Positions 33,844 to 39,453 of a stretch of 64,000 nucleotides of DNA are shown here, in pieces (position 1 is the first letter of the stretch; each line of letters begins with the position of its first letter). Origin of the DNA: Hyphomicrobiales bacterium. GTDB lineage: Bacteria; Pseudomonadota; Alphaproteobacteria; Rhizobiales; Methyloligellaceae. The DNA is taken from assembly GCA_021775555.1 (NCBI GenBank), contig JAJFHP010000003.1, positions 1 to 64,000 of the forward strand, in the 5' to 3' direction. The notes below the pieces were generated by a model. That model searched no databases and was not told the origin of the DNA. It worked only from the letters and a program-made list of their open reading frames with translations. A program made the translations under genes and the position numbers.

Positions 33844-34494
33844 CTAATGTTGATGCCAGGGCGGCAGCACGATGCGGGCTGCGGCGTGTCCCAGCCGCCG
33901 GTGACCCGGCCCGTCATCCACATCGCCCAAATGGTCAATCAGCGACACGCGTGAGCGCCTCAGATTGGTGAGCGTATCATCGAGGGTATGGGGGCTGGAC
34001 CAGCGCACACCCGCAAAGATGTTGAGAATTTTTGGGGTCCGCCTCTGCCCAACGAGCCAATAGCCGCCGTCCTCGCACGGCCCCAGAACAGCATCATGGG
34101 CCCCCAGTGCCGCAAAGGCCCTGGAAATATGCCGGTTTGATATCTCGGGGATATCGGTGCCGATAATGACAACCGGCCCTTTCGGCAAACAGTCAAACAC
34201 GCGCTGCATCCGCGCGCCCAAATCTCCATCACCCTGCCCTATGAGATCGGGCCCGGGAGGCCAGGCAGGTGAGCCAATAGACGTATCGGGCGATACAGAA
34301 ATCAGCGTGTTCCAACGCGGATCATTCGCAAGCCGGGCCGATACATTGGCCAGCGTGCGCCGGTAAAACCCTGTTGCTTTTACCGCTCCAATATCTCTGG
34401 CGAGACGCGTCTTGACCGCACCGCAACGCGGTTCCTTGGCCATGACCACGAGCGAGCGCCGGAGCCCTCTTTCAGGTTTCACACTTTCAGCCAT
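33844..34494 (-). CDS. DUF2064/TIGR04282-type glycosyltransferase-like protein
   Basis: A 216-aa protein of the family annotated as TIGR04282 (COG3222, DUF2064), a nucleotide-sugar-transferase-like fold. Typical segments are VVMAKEPRCGAVKTRLARDI at the start, VVIIGTDIPEI in the middle and VLGPCEDGGYWLVG. The start is ATG 34494, 8 bp inside the upstream glycosyltransferase gene; an extra 20 codons upstream are open but overlap more. It pairs with the TIGR04283-like gene. Members are sometimes labelled arsenosugar biosynthesis, but no arsenic genes are here, so the substrate is open. Confidence 0.85.
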   Translation of the reverse strand: MAESVKPERGLRRSLVVMAKEPRCGAVKTRLARDIGAVKATGFYRRTLANVSARLANDPRWNTLISVSPDTSIGSPAWPPGPDLIGQGDGDLGARMQRVFDCLPKGPVVIIGTDIPEISNRHISRAFAALGAHDAVLGPCEDGGYWLVGQRRTPKILNIFAGVRWSSPHTLDDTLTNLRRSRVSLIDHLGDVDDGPGHRRLGHAAARIVLPPWHQH

Positions 34495-35176
34495 ACAGTC
34501 GGACAAGCGTTGCGGGCGGCACCCGCAGATAATAGAGCGACAGGCAGGTGGCATTTCGCACTATGCGAGAAAAATAGCCGTTCCTTTTATAACGCGCAGC
34601 ACTGGTGACGGCTTTTGATCGCATCATCATCAGCCTCTTTCTCCCCAGCCTGCGCACCAGATCAACATCCTCCATCAAAGGCATTGAGCGATAGCCACCA
34701 ATGGAATTGTAAAGCTGCTTTGGAATAAGAAGGCCCTGATCGCCATATGGCAGAGAGAACAGTGCGCAGCGCATCCCGACGATGGCCTCCAGCATGCGCG
34801 GCTTGGCGCCGAAATCATCCAGTGCAAAGGAAAAGGCTGCCGCCGAAAGAGGCCTGTCGCCGATATCGACGTGCTCCATGAACGTGGCGGCCTCCGCCTC
34901 CCATCCTGTTTGCGGCACGGTGTCGGCATGGAGAAACAGCAGCCATTTCGAGCGTGCCGCATCAGCTCCGGCGGCAAGTTGGACCCCGCGCCCGCGCTCA
35001 CTGCGGATAAAATTGGCACCCGCCACATCGGCGATTTCAGCCGTCGCATCGCTTGAGCCGCCGTCAGAAATGATCACTTCCTTGATGAGCCCCTGCACGG
35101 TCGCCGGCACAAGCGCGGTGAGCGTCGCGGTAAGCCCGGCATCGGCATTCAGCGTTGGGATGACGACGGAAATCAT
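34487..35176 (-). CDS. TIGR04283-type family 2 glycosyltransferase
   Basis: A 229-aa GT-A fold glycosyltransferase. It opens with ISVVIPTLNADAGLTATLTA, has the DGGSSDATAEIA nucleotide site, the DXD-like LLFLHADT and the later YRSMPLMEDVDLVRRL segment. This is the usual partner of the DUF2064 protein immediately downstream, with which it overlaps by 8 bp. Acceptor and donor sugar cannot be predicted. Divergent from the radical SAM gene. Confidence 0.88.
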   Translation of the reverse strand: MISVVIPTLNADAGLTATLTALVPATVQGLIKEVIISDGGSSDATAEIADVAGANFIRSERGRGVQLAAGADAARSKWLLFLHADTVPQTGWEAEAATFMEHVDIGDRPLSAAAFSFALDDFGAKPRMLEAIVGMRCALFSLPYGDQGLLIPKQLYNSIGGYRSMPLMEDVDLVRRLGRKRLMMMRSKAVTSAARYKRNGYFSRIVRNATCLSLYYLRVPPATLVRLYG

Positions 35177-35241
35177 GGGCGCGGATCATAGTGTTTGCAA
35201 GAGGGCTCAACAAGACCGCGATGACCCGGTCATCTTATTAT

Positions 35242-35256
35242 GTTCTTGATTTGTTC
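35242..35256. promoter_or_regulatory. SOS box (LexA site) upstream of the radical SAM gene
   Basis: GTTC at 35242-35245 and GTTC at 35253-35256 are separated by exactly 7 nt, the direct-repeat operator GTTC-N7-GTTC that is characteristic of alphaproteobacterial LexA. It lies 25 bp ahead of the start codon at 35282 and overlaps the AT-rich promoter region (TATATAAG at 35265-35272). Functional binding is inference. Confidence 0.75.
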
Positions 35257-35281
35257 TTTATCCTTATATAAGCTCCTCTAC

Positions 35282-36421
35282 ATGGACCTGCAGCCCCCTC
35301 AAACCCCGCCGGTCCGGCAAACGTCGGCGCCCGGATCAGGTGAACTCCCTGAAGAAATCCCGTCCGGGCGCCGCCGTGGCCGTGGGTCGGTGTCAAACCA
35401 TACTGGCCGTTTTGAGCAGCAAATCCGCAGCCAGAGCGACGATGGATGGGAGAGCCTGGGAGACCTCGATGCCTTCTCCACATCTGTGCAGGAAGAACGG
35501 GCCAAGAGCATAATTTCCAGCAACAAATCGCCCGATATCGGGTTTGACCAGTCCATCAACCCTTATCGCGGTTGCGAGCATGGCTGCGTCTATTGCTACG
35601 CCCGGCCCACCCACGCGTTCTTAGGTCTTTCTGCGGGGCTGGATTTTGAAAGCAAGCTGTTTGCAAAAGTCAACGCCCCGGAGCTTCTGGAACGCGAGCT
35701 GGCAAAGCCCGGCTATAAGGTGAAAACAATTGCGCTGGGCACCAACACCGACCCCTACCAGCCTATTGAGCGGCAATACCGGATCATGCGGCGGTTGCTG
35801 GAAATACTGGAGCGGGCCAATCACCCTGTCGGCATTGTCACCAAGTCCGCACTCATTCTGCGCGACAAGGATATCCTCACCTCAATGGCAAAACGCGGGC
35901 TTGTGAAGGTCGCGCTCTCCATCACAACACTCGACCGCAAGCTCGCCCGTGCCATGGAGCCGCGCGCCTCGACACCGCAAAAGCGGCTGGATGCACTGGA
36001 AGACCTCTCAAGTGCCGGCATCCCCACCGCCGTCATGGTTGCACCCATCATCCCCGCCCTGAACGATCCGGAAATAGAAACCATCCTTACACGAACCCAT
36101 GCGGCTGGAGCGTGCGAGGCCGGCTATGTGATGCTGCGCCTGCCGCTGGAGATTGCAGATCTGTTCCAGGAGTGGCTCAACAAGAACGCACCTGACCGCG
36201 CCAAACGCGTCATGTCTCTGATGCGCTCCATGCGCGGCGGCAAGGACTATGATGCGCAGTGGGGCAAGCGCATGCGCGGGCAAGGCCCCTATGCCTGGCA
36301 GATCGGCCGGCGGTTTGAACTTGCCACAAGGAGACTTGGCCTCAACGCCAAGAGTTTTGATCTGAGACGTGATCTGTTCGAGCCGCCTGTCCTGCCGGGC
36401 CAGCAAATGTCCCTGCTTTAG
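35282..36421 (+). CDS. PA0069-family (SplB-like) radical SAM protein
   Basis: A 379-aa radical SAM enzyme. The cluster motif is in YRGCEHGCVYCYARPTHAF (CxxxCxxC, about residues 98-106), followed by GTNTDPYQPIERQYR. Distantly related to spore photoproduct lyase SplB (COG1533), although the repair substrate is unknown. The ATG at 35240 lies at the SOS box itself, so the ATG at 35282 is chosen. No ribosome site is visible, so the mRNA may be nearly leaderless. The LexA-type box suggests DNA-damage induction. RNase HII begins 38 bp downstream and may be co-transcribed. Confidence 0.9.
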   Translation: MDLQPPQTPPVRQTSAPGSGELPEEIPSGRRRGRGSVSNHTGRFEQQIRSQSDDGWESLGDLDAFSTSVQEERAKSIISSNKSPDIGFDQSINPYRGCEHGCVYCYARPTHAFLGLSAGLDFESKLFAKVNAPELLERELAKPGYKVKTIALGTNTDPYQPIERQYRIMRRLLEILERANHPVGIVTKSALILRDKDILTSMAKRGLVKVALSITTLDRKLARAMEPRASTPQKRLDALEDLSSAGIPTAVMVAPIIPALNDPEIETILTRTHAAGACEAGYVMLRLPLEIADLFQEWLNKNAPDRAKRVMSLMRSMRGGKDYDAQWGKRMRGQGPYAWQIGRRFELATRRLGLNAKSFDLRRDLFEPPVLPGQQMSLL

Positions 36422-36459
36422 CATTTGCCTGAAGTCTTCCCCCCCGGCACAGTGCGCCC

Positions 36460-37080
36460 ATGCCGAGTCTGGACCATGAGAACGAACTGGTGCGCCAATA
36501 TGGCGGCCCCGTTGCGGGCATTGACGAAGCCGGTCGAGGCCCCTGGGCAGGGCCTGTGGTGTCTGCCGCCGTGATCCTCGACATCGCCCATGTGCCGGAA
36601 GGGCTGAATGACTCTAAAAAACTTACCGAGAACGCCCGTGAAGCGCTTTTTACACAGATCATGGCGCGGGCCCAGGTTGGTGTCGGTATCGGGGATGTTG
36701 CACGCATTGACCGCGACAACATTCTGCAAGCCACCCTTTGGGCCATGGATCAGGCCTGCAAGGCGCTCCCCGAAAAACCGGCTGCAGCCCTCATTGACGG
36801 CAATCGCTGCCCGACACTCAACTGTTCCGCCCAGTCCCTCATCAAGGGAGACGCCCTGTCCCTCAGTGTTGCCGCAGCTTCAATCATCGCCAAGGTCACG
36901 CGCGACCGCATCATGGTGGACCTGGCCAAAGCCCATCCCGGATATGCCTGGGAGCGCAACAAGGGATATGGCACGCGCGCACATTCAGATGGCCTGATGC
37001 GCCTGGGCGTGACACCTCATCACCGCCGCTCCTTCAAACCCGTTCAGGCGATCCTCCTGCAAAATAGCAAGTGCGATTAA
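36460..37080 (+). CDS. rnhB: Ribonuclease HII
   Basis: A 206-aa RNase HII that nicks RNA/DNA hybrids and single embedded ribonucleotides. The catalytic motif GIDEAGRGPWAGPVV (about residues 18-32) supplies the Asp-Glu pair. Other conserved segments are LNDSKKL, AALIDGNRCP, KGDALSLSVAAASIIAKVTR and YAWERNKGYGTRAH. The length is normal. It follows the SOS-boxed radical SAM gene and precedes ccrM. Confidence 0.96.
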   Translation: MPSLDHENELVRQYGGPVAGIDEAGRGPWAGPVVSAAVILDIAHVPEGLNDSKKLTENAREALFTQIMARAQVGVGIGDVARIDRDNILQATLWAMDQACKALPEKPAAALIDGNRCPTLNCSAQSLIKGDALSLSVAAASIIAKVTRDRIMVDLAKAHPGYAWERNKGYGTRAHSDGLMRLGVTPHHRRSFKPVQAILLQNSKCD

Positions 37081-37096
37081 GTCCGCCTTTACCTTG

Positions 37097-37123
37097 TTAA
37101 CGGCACATTAGGCGCCTAGACTC
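37097..37123. promoter_or_regulatory. CtrA-like box and GANTC site upstream of ccrM
   Basis: TTAA (37097-37100), 7 nt, TTAG (37108-37111) matches the CtrA consensus TTAA-N7-TTAA at seven of eight positions. GACTC at 37119-37123 is a CcrM methylation site. Both lie within 75 bp of the ccrM start. In Caulobacter, ccrM is CtrA-activated and methylation-sensitive; the same logic here is inference. Confidence 0.6.
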
Positions 37124-37168
37124 GAATGGCCCTGTTTGAGGTCTGTGTGTCGCGTATCGGGGTTGTGT

Positions 37169-38278
37169 ATGAGTAAGCGTAAAAGTCAAAGCCCGGTGAC
37201 GGGTGTCAACCGGATTATTCTCGGTGACTGCATCGAGGAGCTGCGCGCCCTGCCCAAGGGCTGTGCCGATCTCGTGTTTGCCGACCCACCCTATAATCTC
37301 CAGCTCGAAGGTGAGCTGATGCGTCCCAACAATACCCGTGTCGACGGGGTTGATAACGACTGGGACAAATTCACTGATTTCTCCACCTATGACGCTTTCA
37401 GTCGTGACTGGCTCAATGCTTGTCGTGAGTTGCTCAAGCCCAACGGTGCGTTGTGGGTCATCGGCAGCTACCATAATATTTTCCGCGTCGGCACACAGCT
37501 TCAGGATCTGGGCTACTGGATTTTGAACGATATTATCTGGCGCAAGACGAACCCGATGCCGAACTTCCGGGGCAAGCGCTTTACCAACGCCCATGAAACA
37601 CTGATTTGGGCGGCCAGGAGCGAGAAAAGCCGCTGTACTTTCAACTATGAAGCCATGAAGGCGCTCAACGAAGACATCCAGATGCGCTCTGATTGGCTGT
37701 TCCCGATTTGCTCAGGTCCTGAGCGGTTGAAGAACTCGCAGGGCAAAAAAGCCCACCCAACGCAAAAACCGGAAAGCCTGTTGCAGCGTATCTTGCTGGC
37801 CTCGACCAATCCGGGTGATGTTGTGGTGGATCCTTTCTTTGGTACGGGAACGACCGGCGCGGCAGCTGCACGTCTTGGGCGTCACTGGATTGGTATCGAG
37901 CGCGAAAAATCCTACGCTCGAGTGGCGCAAAAGCGCATTGACGCAATTGAACCACTTGATGAGCAATCGCTCAGCATCACGCAGAGCAAGCGCGCAGCCC
38001 CCCGTGTACCATTTGGTACGCTCATCGAGCTTGGCATCATCAAGCCAGGCGCGACCCTCTATGACCACCGGGCCAAACATGAAGCCCATGTGAAGGCCGA
38101 CGGCTCCATTGCGTGTGCCGGCGAACAGGGGTCTATCCACAAGATCGGGGCCCATGTTCAGGGTGCCCAAGCCTGCAATGGCTGGACGTTCTGGCACTAT
38201 GAGGCAGGCGGTAAACTCAAGCCTATCGACGCTTTGCGAGATGAGGCGCGGAGCCATCTCGGTATCAGCGCCAATTGA
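37169..38278 (+). CDS. ccrM: Cell-cycle-regulated adenine methyltransferase CcrM
   Basis: A 369-aa beta-class N6-adenine methyltransferase, expected to methylate GANTC. The catalytic motif [13 protein letters not shown] lies near residues 38-50, in the N-terminal half, and the SAM motif [17 protein letters not shown] follows near 226-242, the beta-class order. The C-terminal domain (about 285-365, with [18 protein letters not shown] and the NGWTFWHYE segment) is the CcrM-specific DNA-recognition domain. The ATG at 37169 is preferred over a TTG 11 codons upstream. An orphan methyltransferase: no restriction gene is nearby. Confidence 0.95.
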
Positions 38279-39355
38279 TCAGCGCGTGGTGTAATCCAGT
38301 GCATGGGCAACAACTTTTCGCATGACCGACGGCAGGGCCTGAGCATCAAGTTCACGCCGTGGCACCCACATGTATCGCTCAAGGGCCACATCTTTACCCG
38401 TGCAACTACCCTCCTCGGTATGTGCCAGATACACAGACAGCTCCAGGTGAAAATGCGTGAATGTGTGGCGCACAATCCCCGGCACACGCTCCCATGTTGC
38501 ATCTATAGGGCCATCGGACATGACCATCTCGCCTTCACGCCACTCTGAGCCCGGCACCTCGGTCATACCACCGAGCAGACCCTTAGCAGGGCGTTTGCGG
38601 AGCAGGATTGCACCGTCTGAACGCTGGATAAAATATGCAAAACCGTGCCGCGTTGGTTTGGCTTTCTTCGGCGTCTTGTAGGGCAACACCGACGCCAACC
38701 CCGATGCGAAACCCGCACACCGTGATTTCCACGGACAGCGTGCGCATGAGGGACTGCGCGGCGTGCAAATGGTTGCCCCAAGATCCATCATCGCCTGCGC
38801 AAAATCACCCGGTCTCTCCCCCGGGGCCAGGGTTTCCAGCATGGCGCGCAATTCCGGCTTTGCACCCGGCAAAGGCGCCTCAACAGCATAAACCCGGGCA
38901 AGAACCCGCTCCACATTGCCATCCATAACCGCAGCTGGATTGTCAAACGCGATGGCAGCAATCGCTGCTGCCGTGTATGACCCCACCCCGGGCAGCGTCA
39001 AAAGCTCTTTCTCCGTTTCAGGAAAGCGCCCGGAATAGACATCCGCAACAGCACGTGCGCAGGCATGAAGGTTTCGTGCCCGAGCATAATATCCAAGGCC
39101 TGCCCACGCCTGAAGCACATGCTCCAGCTCAGCTTCCGCCAAATCTTCAACCCTTGGCCAGCGTTTGAGAAATGCAGTGAAATAAGGCCCGACCACCTTC
39201 ACGGTCGTCTGCTGCAACATGATTTCGCTCAGCCACACGGCATAGGCATCAGATGATTCGCCCGGTGCAGCGCGCCATGGCAGTTCACGGCGGGATTGAT
39301 CATACCAGTCCAGCAGTGTTCTCGCAGCCCACGCAGAATCGGGGGTTGCCGACAT
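38279..39355 (-). CDS. mutY: A/G-specific adenine glycosylase MutY
   Basis: A 358-aa base-excision enzyme removing adenine from 8-oxoG:A mispairs. The helix-hairpin-helix/GPD core has EIMLQQTTVKVV, LLTLPGVGSYTAAAIAAIAF and a catalytic VMDGNVERVLARV. The four cluster cysteines are in CTPRSPSCARCPWKSRC (C-X6-C-X2-C-X5-C). A C-terminal Nudix-like domain recognises 8-oxoG. ATG 39355 follows GGGGA; an alternative ATG is at 39373. Its stop adjoins the ccrM stop (convergent, no gap). Confidence 0.94.
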   Translation of the reverse strand: MSATPDSAWAARTLLDWYDQSRRELPWRAAPGESSDAYAVWLSEIMLQQTTVKVVGPYFTAFLKRWPRVEDLAEAELEHVLQAWAGLGYYARARNLHACARAVADVYSGRFPETEKELLTLPGVGSYTAAAIAAIAFDNPAAVMDGNVERVLARVYAVEAPLPGAKPELRAMLETLAPGERPGDFAQAMMDLGATICTPRSPSCARCPWKSRCAGFASGLASVLPYKTPKKAKPTRHGFAYFIQRSDGAILLRKRPAKGLLGGMTEVPGSEWREGEMVMSDGPIDATWERVPGIVRHTFTHFHLELSVYLAHTEEGSCTGKDVALERYMWVPRRELDAQALPSVMRKVVAHALDYTTR

Positions 39356-39453
39356 GTTTTCCCCATGGCTCATCTTCGTGCTGCCTCGCCACATCATGAT
39401 TGGGTATGATAGGAGCATTGCAGCTTCAGGAAAACGGTCGAAACCAGACTAAT

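Follow-up and report, generated by a model that had tools for sequence, protein, structure and literature searches.

A conserved putative LexA operator ahead of a PA0069-family radical SAM gene in Alphaproteobacteria

The locus described here raises the question of whether a radical SAM gene that is preceded by an exact GTTC-N7-GTTC repeat belongs to the SOS response and, if so, what type of enzyme would be produced upon DNA damage. In the window, i.e., the whole stretch of 64,000 nt that was analyzed and from whose first letter all coordinates are counted, this repeat lies, as the earlier note had claimed, 25 bp (35257-35281) ahead of an in-frame ATG at 35282 (Table 1). The reading that best explains the evidence, and which we consider very probable, is that a LexA operator represses a PA0069-family gene, that this gene is induced by damage with the adjacent rnhB gene carried along, and that its product, an enzyme with the fold of spore photoproduct lyase (SPL), acts on damage.

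Table 1. Features of the radical SAM locus and its surroundings
Feature	Coordinates	Strand	Basis or remark
TIGR04283 glycosyltransferase gene, divergent	34487..35176	-	TIGR04283 205.5 bits, cut-off 182
LexA operator GTTCTTGATTTGTTC (GTTC-N7-GTTC), putative	35242..35256	+	exact match; conserved in relatives
Probable -35 hexamer TTGATT, within operator	35246..35251	+	predicted from 139 aligned boxes
Probable -10 hexamer TAAGCT	35269..35274	+	predicted; 17 bp after -35, 7 nt before ATG
PA0069-family radical SAM gene	35282..36421	+	379 aa; NF033668 and PF04055; cluster motif CEHGCVYC
rnhB, RNase HII; probable read-through passenger	36460..37080	+	PF01351 153.1 bits; 38-bp gap after radical SAM gene
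CcrM-like DNA methyltransferase gene; not assigned to the regulon	37169..38278	+	PF01555 222 bits; NF050803 624.2 bits, below cut-off 830

The longest mechanically called frame of the radical SAM gene begins with an ATG at 35240 and overlaps the box. The ATG at 35282 was preferred because the alignment to the family model begins 31 residues beyond it and because close relatives share this start, their proteins beginning with MDLQPP- or MDLHPS-like sequences after the box. The assignment of the product to the PA0069 type, previously made from the sequence alone, is confirmed by the model of that family, NF033668, which is covered from position 1 to 348 of 348 and scores 569.1 bits against a cut-off of 360; furthermore, a Radical_SAM domain (PF04055) was found. 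The next-best family is that of Rv2578c (NF038135; 240.1 bits across residues 68-315), of which the window protein is not regarded as a member since this score lies under the cut-off of 430. Its own family is held above cut-off by 205 of 397 genomes spread across the phylum, and the cysteines of the CxxxCxxC cluster motif (C98, C102 and C105) are present in all 40 family sequences that were compared.

An AlphaFold model of the protein, built from 49 sequences, is of moderate confidence (mean pLDDT 72.6, pTM 0.74), with 82 residues under pLDDT 50, including residues 99-124 behind the cluster motif. The solved structures that best match this model are six SPL entries, with Z-scores of 15.9-16.5, followed by lipoyl synthase at 13.7; for example, the SPL fold 4rh0 aligns to this moderately confident model with a Z-score of 16.5 and an rmsd of 4.5 over 280 residues. 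Foldseek returned an E-value of 2.9e-6 against SPL, with TM-scores of only 0.40-0.50. The likeness to SPL (4FHC-type structures) resides in the fold of the predicted model and in a CxxxCxYC cluster motif, and is also apparent at the profile level, where hhalign aligned the family to three SPL-like proteins across 82 columns (E 8.2e-6); this alignment is confined to residues 197-281 and does not reach T154. A sequence search of solved structures using the single protein returned nothing relevant, and such a search using a 40-row profile returned SkfB as its best hit (E 1.4e-4), with no SPL chain among the matches listed.

It is these structural and profile similarities that favor the strongest of the alternative explanations, namely that the protein represents a true SPL-type enzyme and that the locus encodes an SOS-controlled direct reversal of the thymine photoproduct, as proposed in PMC3323433. 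We nevertheless consider this unlikely. Membership of the SPL family was rejected as the scores fall far under the relevant cut-offs (16.2 bits against 400 for TIGR04070, and 11 bits against 437.55 for TIGR03886), and a search of the window's genome returned no TIGR03886 match. In the SPL reaction C141, the hydrogen donor in B. subtilis, and Y99 have been described as radical relays, and the corresponding cysteine of Clostridium acetobutylicum SPL sits elsewhere (PMC5368176). Among the 40 PA0069-family sequences, by contrast, no cysteine apart from the three of the cluster is invariant, and any other column has cysteine in at most 11 of the 40. Position 154, which faces the hydrogen-donor cysteine in a motif-based pairing made by eye, is occupied by T, A, I, V or G, and never by C; three SPL-like proteins from the same order read SCY(T/A)DP opposite the GTNTDP of the window protein. 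Similarly, the SPL-like proteins have a tyrosine directly after the last cluster cysteine, where 28 of the 40 have F, although the window protein has Y. As the PA0069 family, unlike SPL, is without a conserved fourth cysteine, the 'photolyase' label is doubtful.

Four genomes of the window's order were found to encode both kinds of protein, and in these the PA0069 gene is preceded by the box in 4/4 cases, as opposed to 0/7 for the SPL-family or SPL-like genes (four that exceed the TIGR03886 cut-off and three lower-scoring ones of SPL-like appearance). Among the four genomes, L327 has its box at a greater distance than the rest, 412 bases ahead of the profile match. Since the box is associated with PA0069 genes rather than SPL genes, and since the SPL residues are missing, the SOS-controlled gene is best described as a PA0069-family gene whose product has an SPL-like fold; judged from its residues, this enzyme probably employs a chemistry that differs from that of SPL.

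The earlier note had suggested that the box be sought in orthologous promoters, and that is indeed where it was found. From a scan of named genomes the best 80 relatives were taken (61-69% identity), of which L102, with only 37 bases upstream, was excluded, leaving 79 with a full 350 bases. A forward GTTC-N7-GTTC is present upstream of the gene in 77 of these 79, the two relatives without it being L055 and L109, the latter of which reads ATTCTTGTTATGTTC. Control spacers of 3-6 and 8-13 occur in at most 4/79 of the same upstream stretches, other orders of the half-site letters in at most 3 of 79 on the forward strand, and the box in reverse orientation in 1/79; in an earlier control, the scrambled half-site GACA-N7-GACA was seen on the other strand in 10/80 upstream stretches. 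Control stretches from the relatives' own loci, which are mostly coding, contained the box in 0/603 cases.

The family is present in 28 of 31 close genomes, and all 28, the window's own genome included, carry the box, so that its absence from close relatives, which the earlier note would have taken as contrary evidence, was not encountered. This count leaves out G021, whose match is MoaA, and treats L196 and L198, which represent one genome, as a single case; in L171 the distance from the box to the cluster motif is greater than elsewhere. In the same-family genome represented by G018, L196 and L198, the radical SAM gene falls into two matches in different frames, reflecting either a frameshift or an assembly error, and the box is intact. 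Beyond the order, 40 alphaproteobacteria were hand-picked among the matches listed so as to spread over families, though 16 belong to one family. The forward box was found in 34 of these 40 genomes and in 11 of the 14 sampled families. Of the six genomes without an exact forward box, L200, L201 and L213 exhibit variants that differ by one or two bases, L220 carries the box in reverse orientation, L212 has a reverse match with a GC-rich spacer, and L228 displayed no box variant in its upstream DNA. One genome of the window's own order (L194, 1296-1321) has three tandem GTTC half-sites at a pitch of 11 bases, GTTCTTATTATGTTCTTGTAATGTTC, ahead of the gene.

The box might alternatively serve a neighboring gene. 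In 74/80 relatives the radical SAM gene is followed by rnhB on the same strand, the rnhB alignment beginning within 400 bp in 52 of them, and on this ground the operator could belong to RNase HII or to an rnhB-ccrM block, with the radical SAM gene merely situated in between. This is very improbable, and rnhB was rejected as the operator's target: in the other alphaproteobacterial orders only 5/40 genomes have rnhB on the strand of the radical SAM gene and within ~2 kb past it, 30 of the 34 box-bearing radical SAM genes are unlinked from rnhB, and none of 20 unlinked rnhB genes (20 of 35 having been fetched) has a box in the 450 bases preceding the domain match. The earlier suggestion that RNase HII is perhaps part of the response therefore stands at most as a locally shared transcript, and does not extend to rnhB elsewhere. 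Since the 105-bp intergenic region also lies ahead of the divergent TIGR04283 glycosyltransferase gene, that gene could in principle own the operator, yet this has hardly any probability and was likewise rejected, as a homologue was found in only 28/80 relatives compared to the box in 77, and the box keeps its orientation relative to the radical SAM gene (77 forward and 1 reverse, n=79). According to these comparisons of sequenced genomes, the box follows the radical SAM gene and not its neighbors. A short inverted repeat, GATGACCCGGTCATC, is located at 35220-35234, just 5' of the operator and between the divergent genes. Furthermore, the block at 33844-39418 (TIGR04282, TIGR04283, radical SAM, rnhB, ccrM-like and a putative mutY, the last label assigned by eye) has matches in Tepidicaulis and in two Parvibaculum genomes (L071, L089 and L099).

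The earlier note had reasoned that the operator is long enough to make a chance match in a promoter unlikely. For one pre-chosen promoter of 105 bp this is correct, the probability of such a match being ~0.3% by arithmetic from the genome counts; genome-wide it is not, as many matches are expected. The window contains two exact GTTC-N7-GTTC motifs against 1.62 expected from shuffles, and the whole genome contains 87 against 116 for a reversed-pattern control, and the rarity or length of the motif was consequently rejected as evidence. Of the 87 genomic motifs, 71 fall within some open frame of at least 120 codons, the window's own box being counted among them because of the frame start at 35240. 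It is because of its conservation in orthologous promoters, and not because of its length, that the box stands above chance: that it is a functionless coincidence, as these window and genome counts would allow, has next to no probability given its presence in 77/79, 28/28 and 34/40 orthologous promoters and in 0/603 control stretches.

The genomic context is in agreement with a LexA operator that controls the radical SAM gene. The genome encodes lexA, and exact boxes are located at lexA itself (L027), recA (L150), a YifB/ComM gene (L120) and a dinB-like gene (L161); those of lexA and recA are in reverse orientation, while that of the dinB-like gene lies inside the first codons of its longest frame. 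These boxes at known SOS genes are among the genomic ones with a T before the second GTTC. Taken together, the conserved box and the boxes at the genome's own lexA, recA, comM and dinB-like genes strongly support, at the level of sequence, membership of the radical SAM gene in the SOS regulon, and thus the earlier proposal that it takes part in the response to DNA damage.

Alignment of 139 distinct boxes indicates how such repression may be achieved. Spacer positions 5-7 are T, T and G, at 84% each, and a TANNNT element starts 11 or 12 bases past the box in 56/139 cases, compared with 22 cases at offset 18 and 10 at offset 0, all other offsets giving at most 4. Such a pattern would be expected if a -35 element, TTGNNN, were embedded in the operator and followed at 16-17 bp by a -10 element. 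The TAAGCT of the window is a weak match to the sigma-70 consensus, and a generic promoter scan returned no sigma-70 promoter in 35100-37300. An ATG is found 23-25 bases after the box in 19/19 fetched genomes of the window's family, the window's own included (four rows also gave an earlier ATG), and this distance makes a leaderless transcript likely. The operator thus probably overlaps the -35 element of a leaderless gene. In the sequence of events that we propose, LexA would occupy 35242-35256 and, by covering the -35 element, keep RNA polymerase from the promoter; DNA damage would lead to RecA-driven cleavage of LexA and free the promoter; transcription would begin at or beside the ATG and, after the 38-bp gap, would continue through rnhB. 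This would yield a radical SAM enzyme with an iron-sulphur cluster and an SPL-like fold that acts on a DNA lesion or on damage-related nucleic acid, its chemistry probably being other than the published SPL radical-return path.

The control of the gene was also followed outside the class, in a second set of 40 genomes that was hand-picked among the matches listed from other classes and spread over families (18 from one family; L248 offering only 197 bases upstream). In these, the alpha box was found upstream of the gene in 0/40, CTGT-N8-ACAG in 25/40, and TTAG-N6-TACTA, a LexA motif of Xanthomonas, in 2/40, with neither of the latter two present in the remaining 13/40. Conversely, CTGT-N8-ACAG occurs in 0/40 of the alphaproteobacterial set, and changing the spacer of CTGT..ACAG to 7 or 9 leaves 0/40 of the other-class genomes with a match. 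Of the 25 genomes with CTGT-N8-ACAG, 18 are from one family; counted by family, this motif is present in 5/13, with TTAG-N6-TACTA in one more. Five genomes without the tested LexA-type boxes, from two families outside the class (L245, L246, L253, L269 and L270), display a TGAGAC element close upstream of the gene. CTGT-N8-ACAG has been described as the beta- and gammaproteobacterial LexA motif, and GTTC-N7-GTTC as that of the alphaproteobacteria (PMC3323433). As the operator type differs by lineage, the gene would have stayed under a LexA-type regulator in several lineages even as the operator was altered; its control thus seems, from sequence comparison, to follow LexA through changes of binding motif, an inference that was also drawn in the 2012 paper for alpha versus beta (PMC3323433).

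SOS control of such a gene is not new, as it was reported for splB in alpha- and betaproteobacteria in 2012 (PMC3323433). That paper presents splB as a predicted alphaproteobacterial SOS gene and comM as a Caulobacter SOS gene, names the splB product a photolyase, and gives the regulation as not observed in gammaproteobacteria. Its splB resembles the present gene in kind, in the alpha GTTC-N7-GTTC, in the possession of another LexA motif in another class and in the company of comM in the regulon, and we infer that it belongs to the PA0069 family; the present analysis differs in naming that family and in counting the operator change on 40 + 40 sampled genomes. Radical SAM genes under LexA have also been described, in other phyla and with other operators, for the Bacteroidetes SplB COG1533 (PMC8565304), for Gram-positive bacteria and Balneolaeota (PMC7739468), and for vnz_31145 of Streptomyces venezuelae, which is tabulated beside columns of mitomycin RNA-seq and LexA ChIP-seq (PMC9380542); the likeness to these genes is that of a radical SAM gene under LexA. 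A 2025 Caulobacter paper gives GTTCN7GTTC, its main text being devoid of splB, radical SAM and photolyase (PMC12700426); the same three terms are absent from the main text of a 2026 Caulobacter paper (PMC13384398), and the main text of a Dinoroseobacter paper is without splB or radical SAM (PMC6473078). A 'DNA repair photolyase' that depends on RecA is named in a 2021 paper on M. tuberculosis, in which the term Rv2578 is absent (PMC8151990). Our literature search did not find PA0069, or Rv2578c, together with LexA. Older papers are said to have identified P. aeruginosa PA0069 and M. tuberculosis Rv2578c as LexA targets. One paper that mentions PA0069 uses it only as a tag site.

The common 'photolyase' label fits the residues of the PA0069 family badly, and the SOS link points to where the lesion of its enzyme is to be sought. 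Since the control seems to track LexA and the label misfits the residues, a biochemical hunt for that lesion is worthwhile. A more far-reaching proposal, which we offer tentatively and rate at somewhat less than an even chance, is that the PA0069-family enzyme is a core, light-independent SOS repair enzyme of the radical SAM type that has a chemistry of its own and reverses or processes a DNA lesion other than the spore photoproduct, and that it matters enough for its SOS control to have survived at least one, and perhaps two, rewirings of the LexA operator in one phylum.

Two further boxes of the window's own genome lie close to genes of other kinds. One, GTTCTATATTTGTTC (L137; C50, 59124-59138), is located ~88 bases before the gene of a 151-aa protein for which no match was found in Pfam or NCBIfam. 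The other, the near-ideal box GTTCTTGTTTTGTTC (L026; C15, 120200-120214), overlaps the longest-frame start of a 141-aa DUF2958 protein, the gene of which is possibly an SOS gene.
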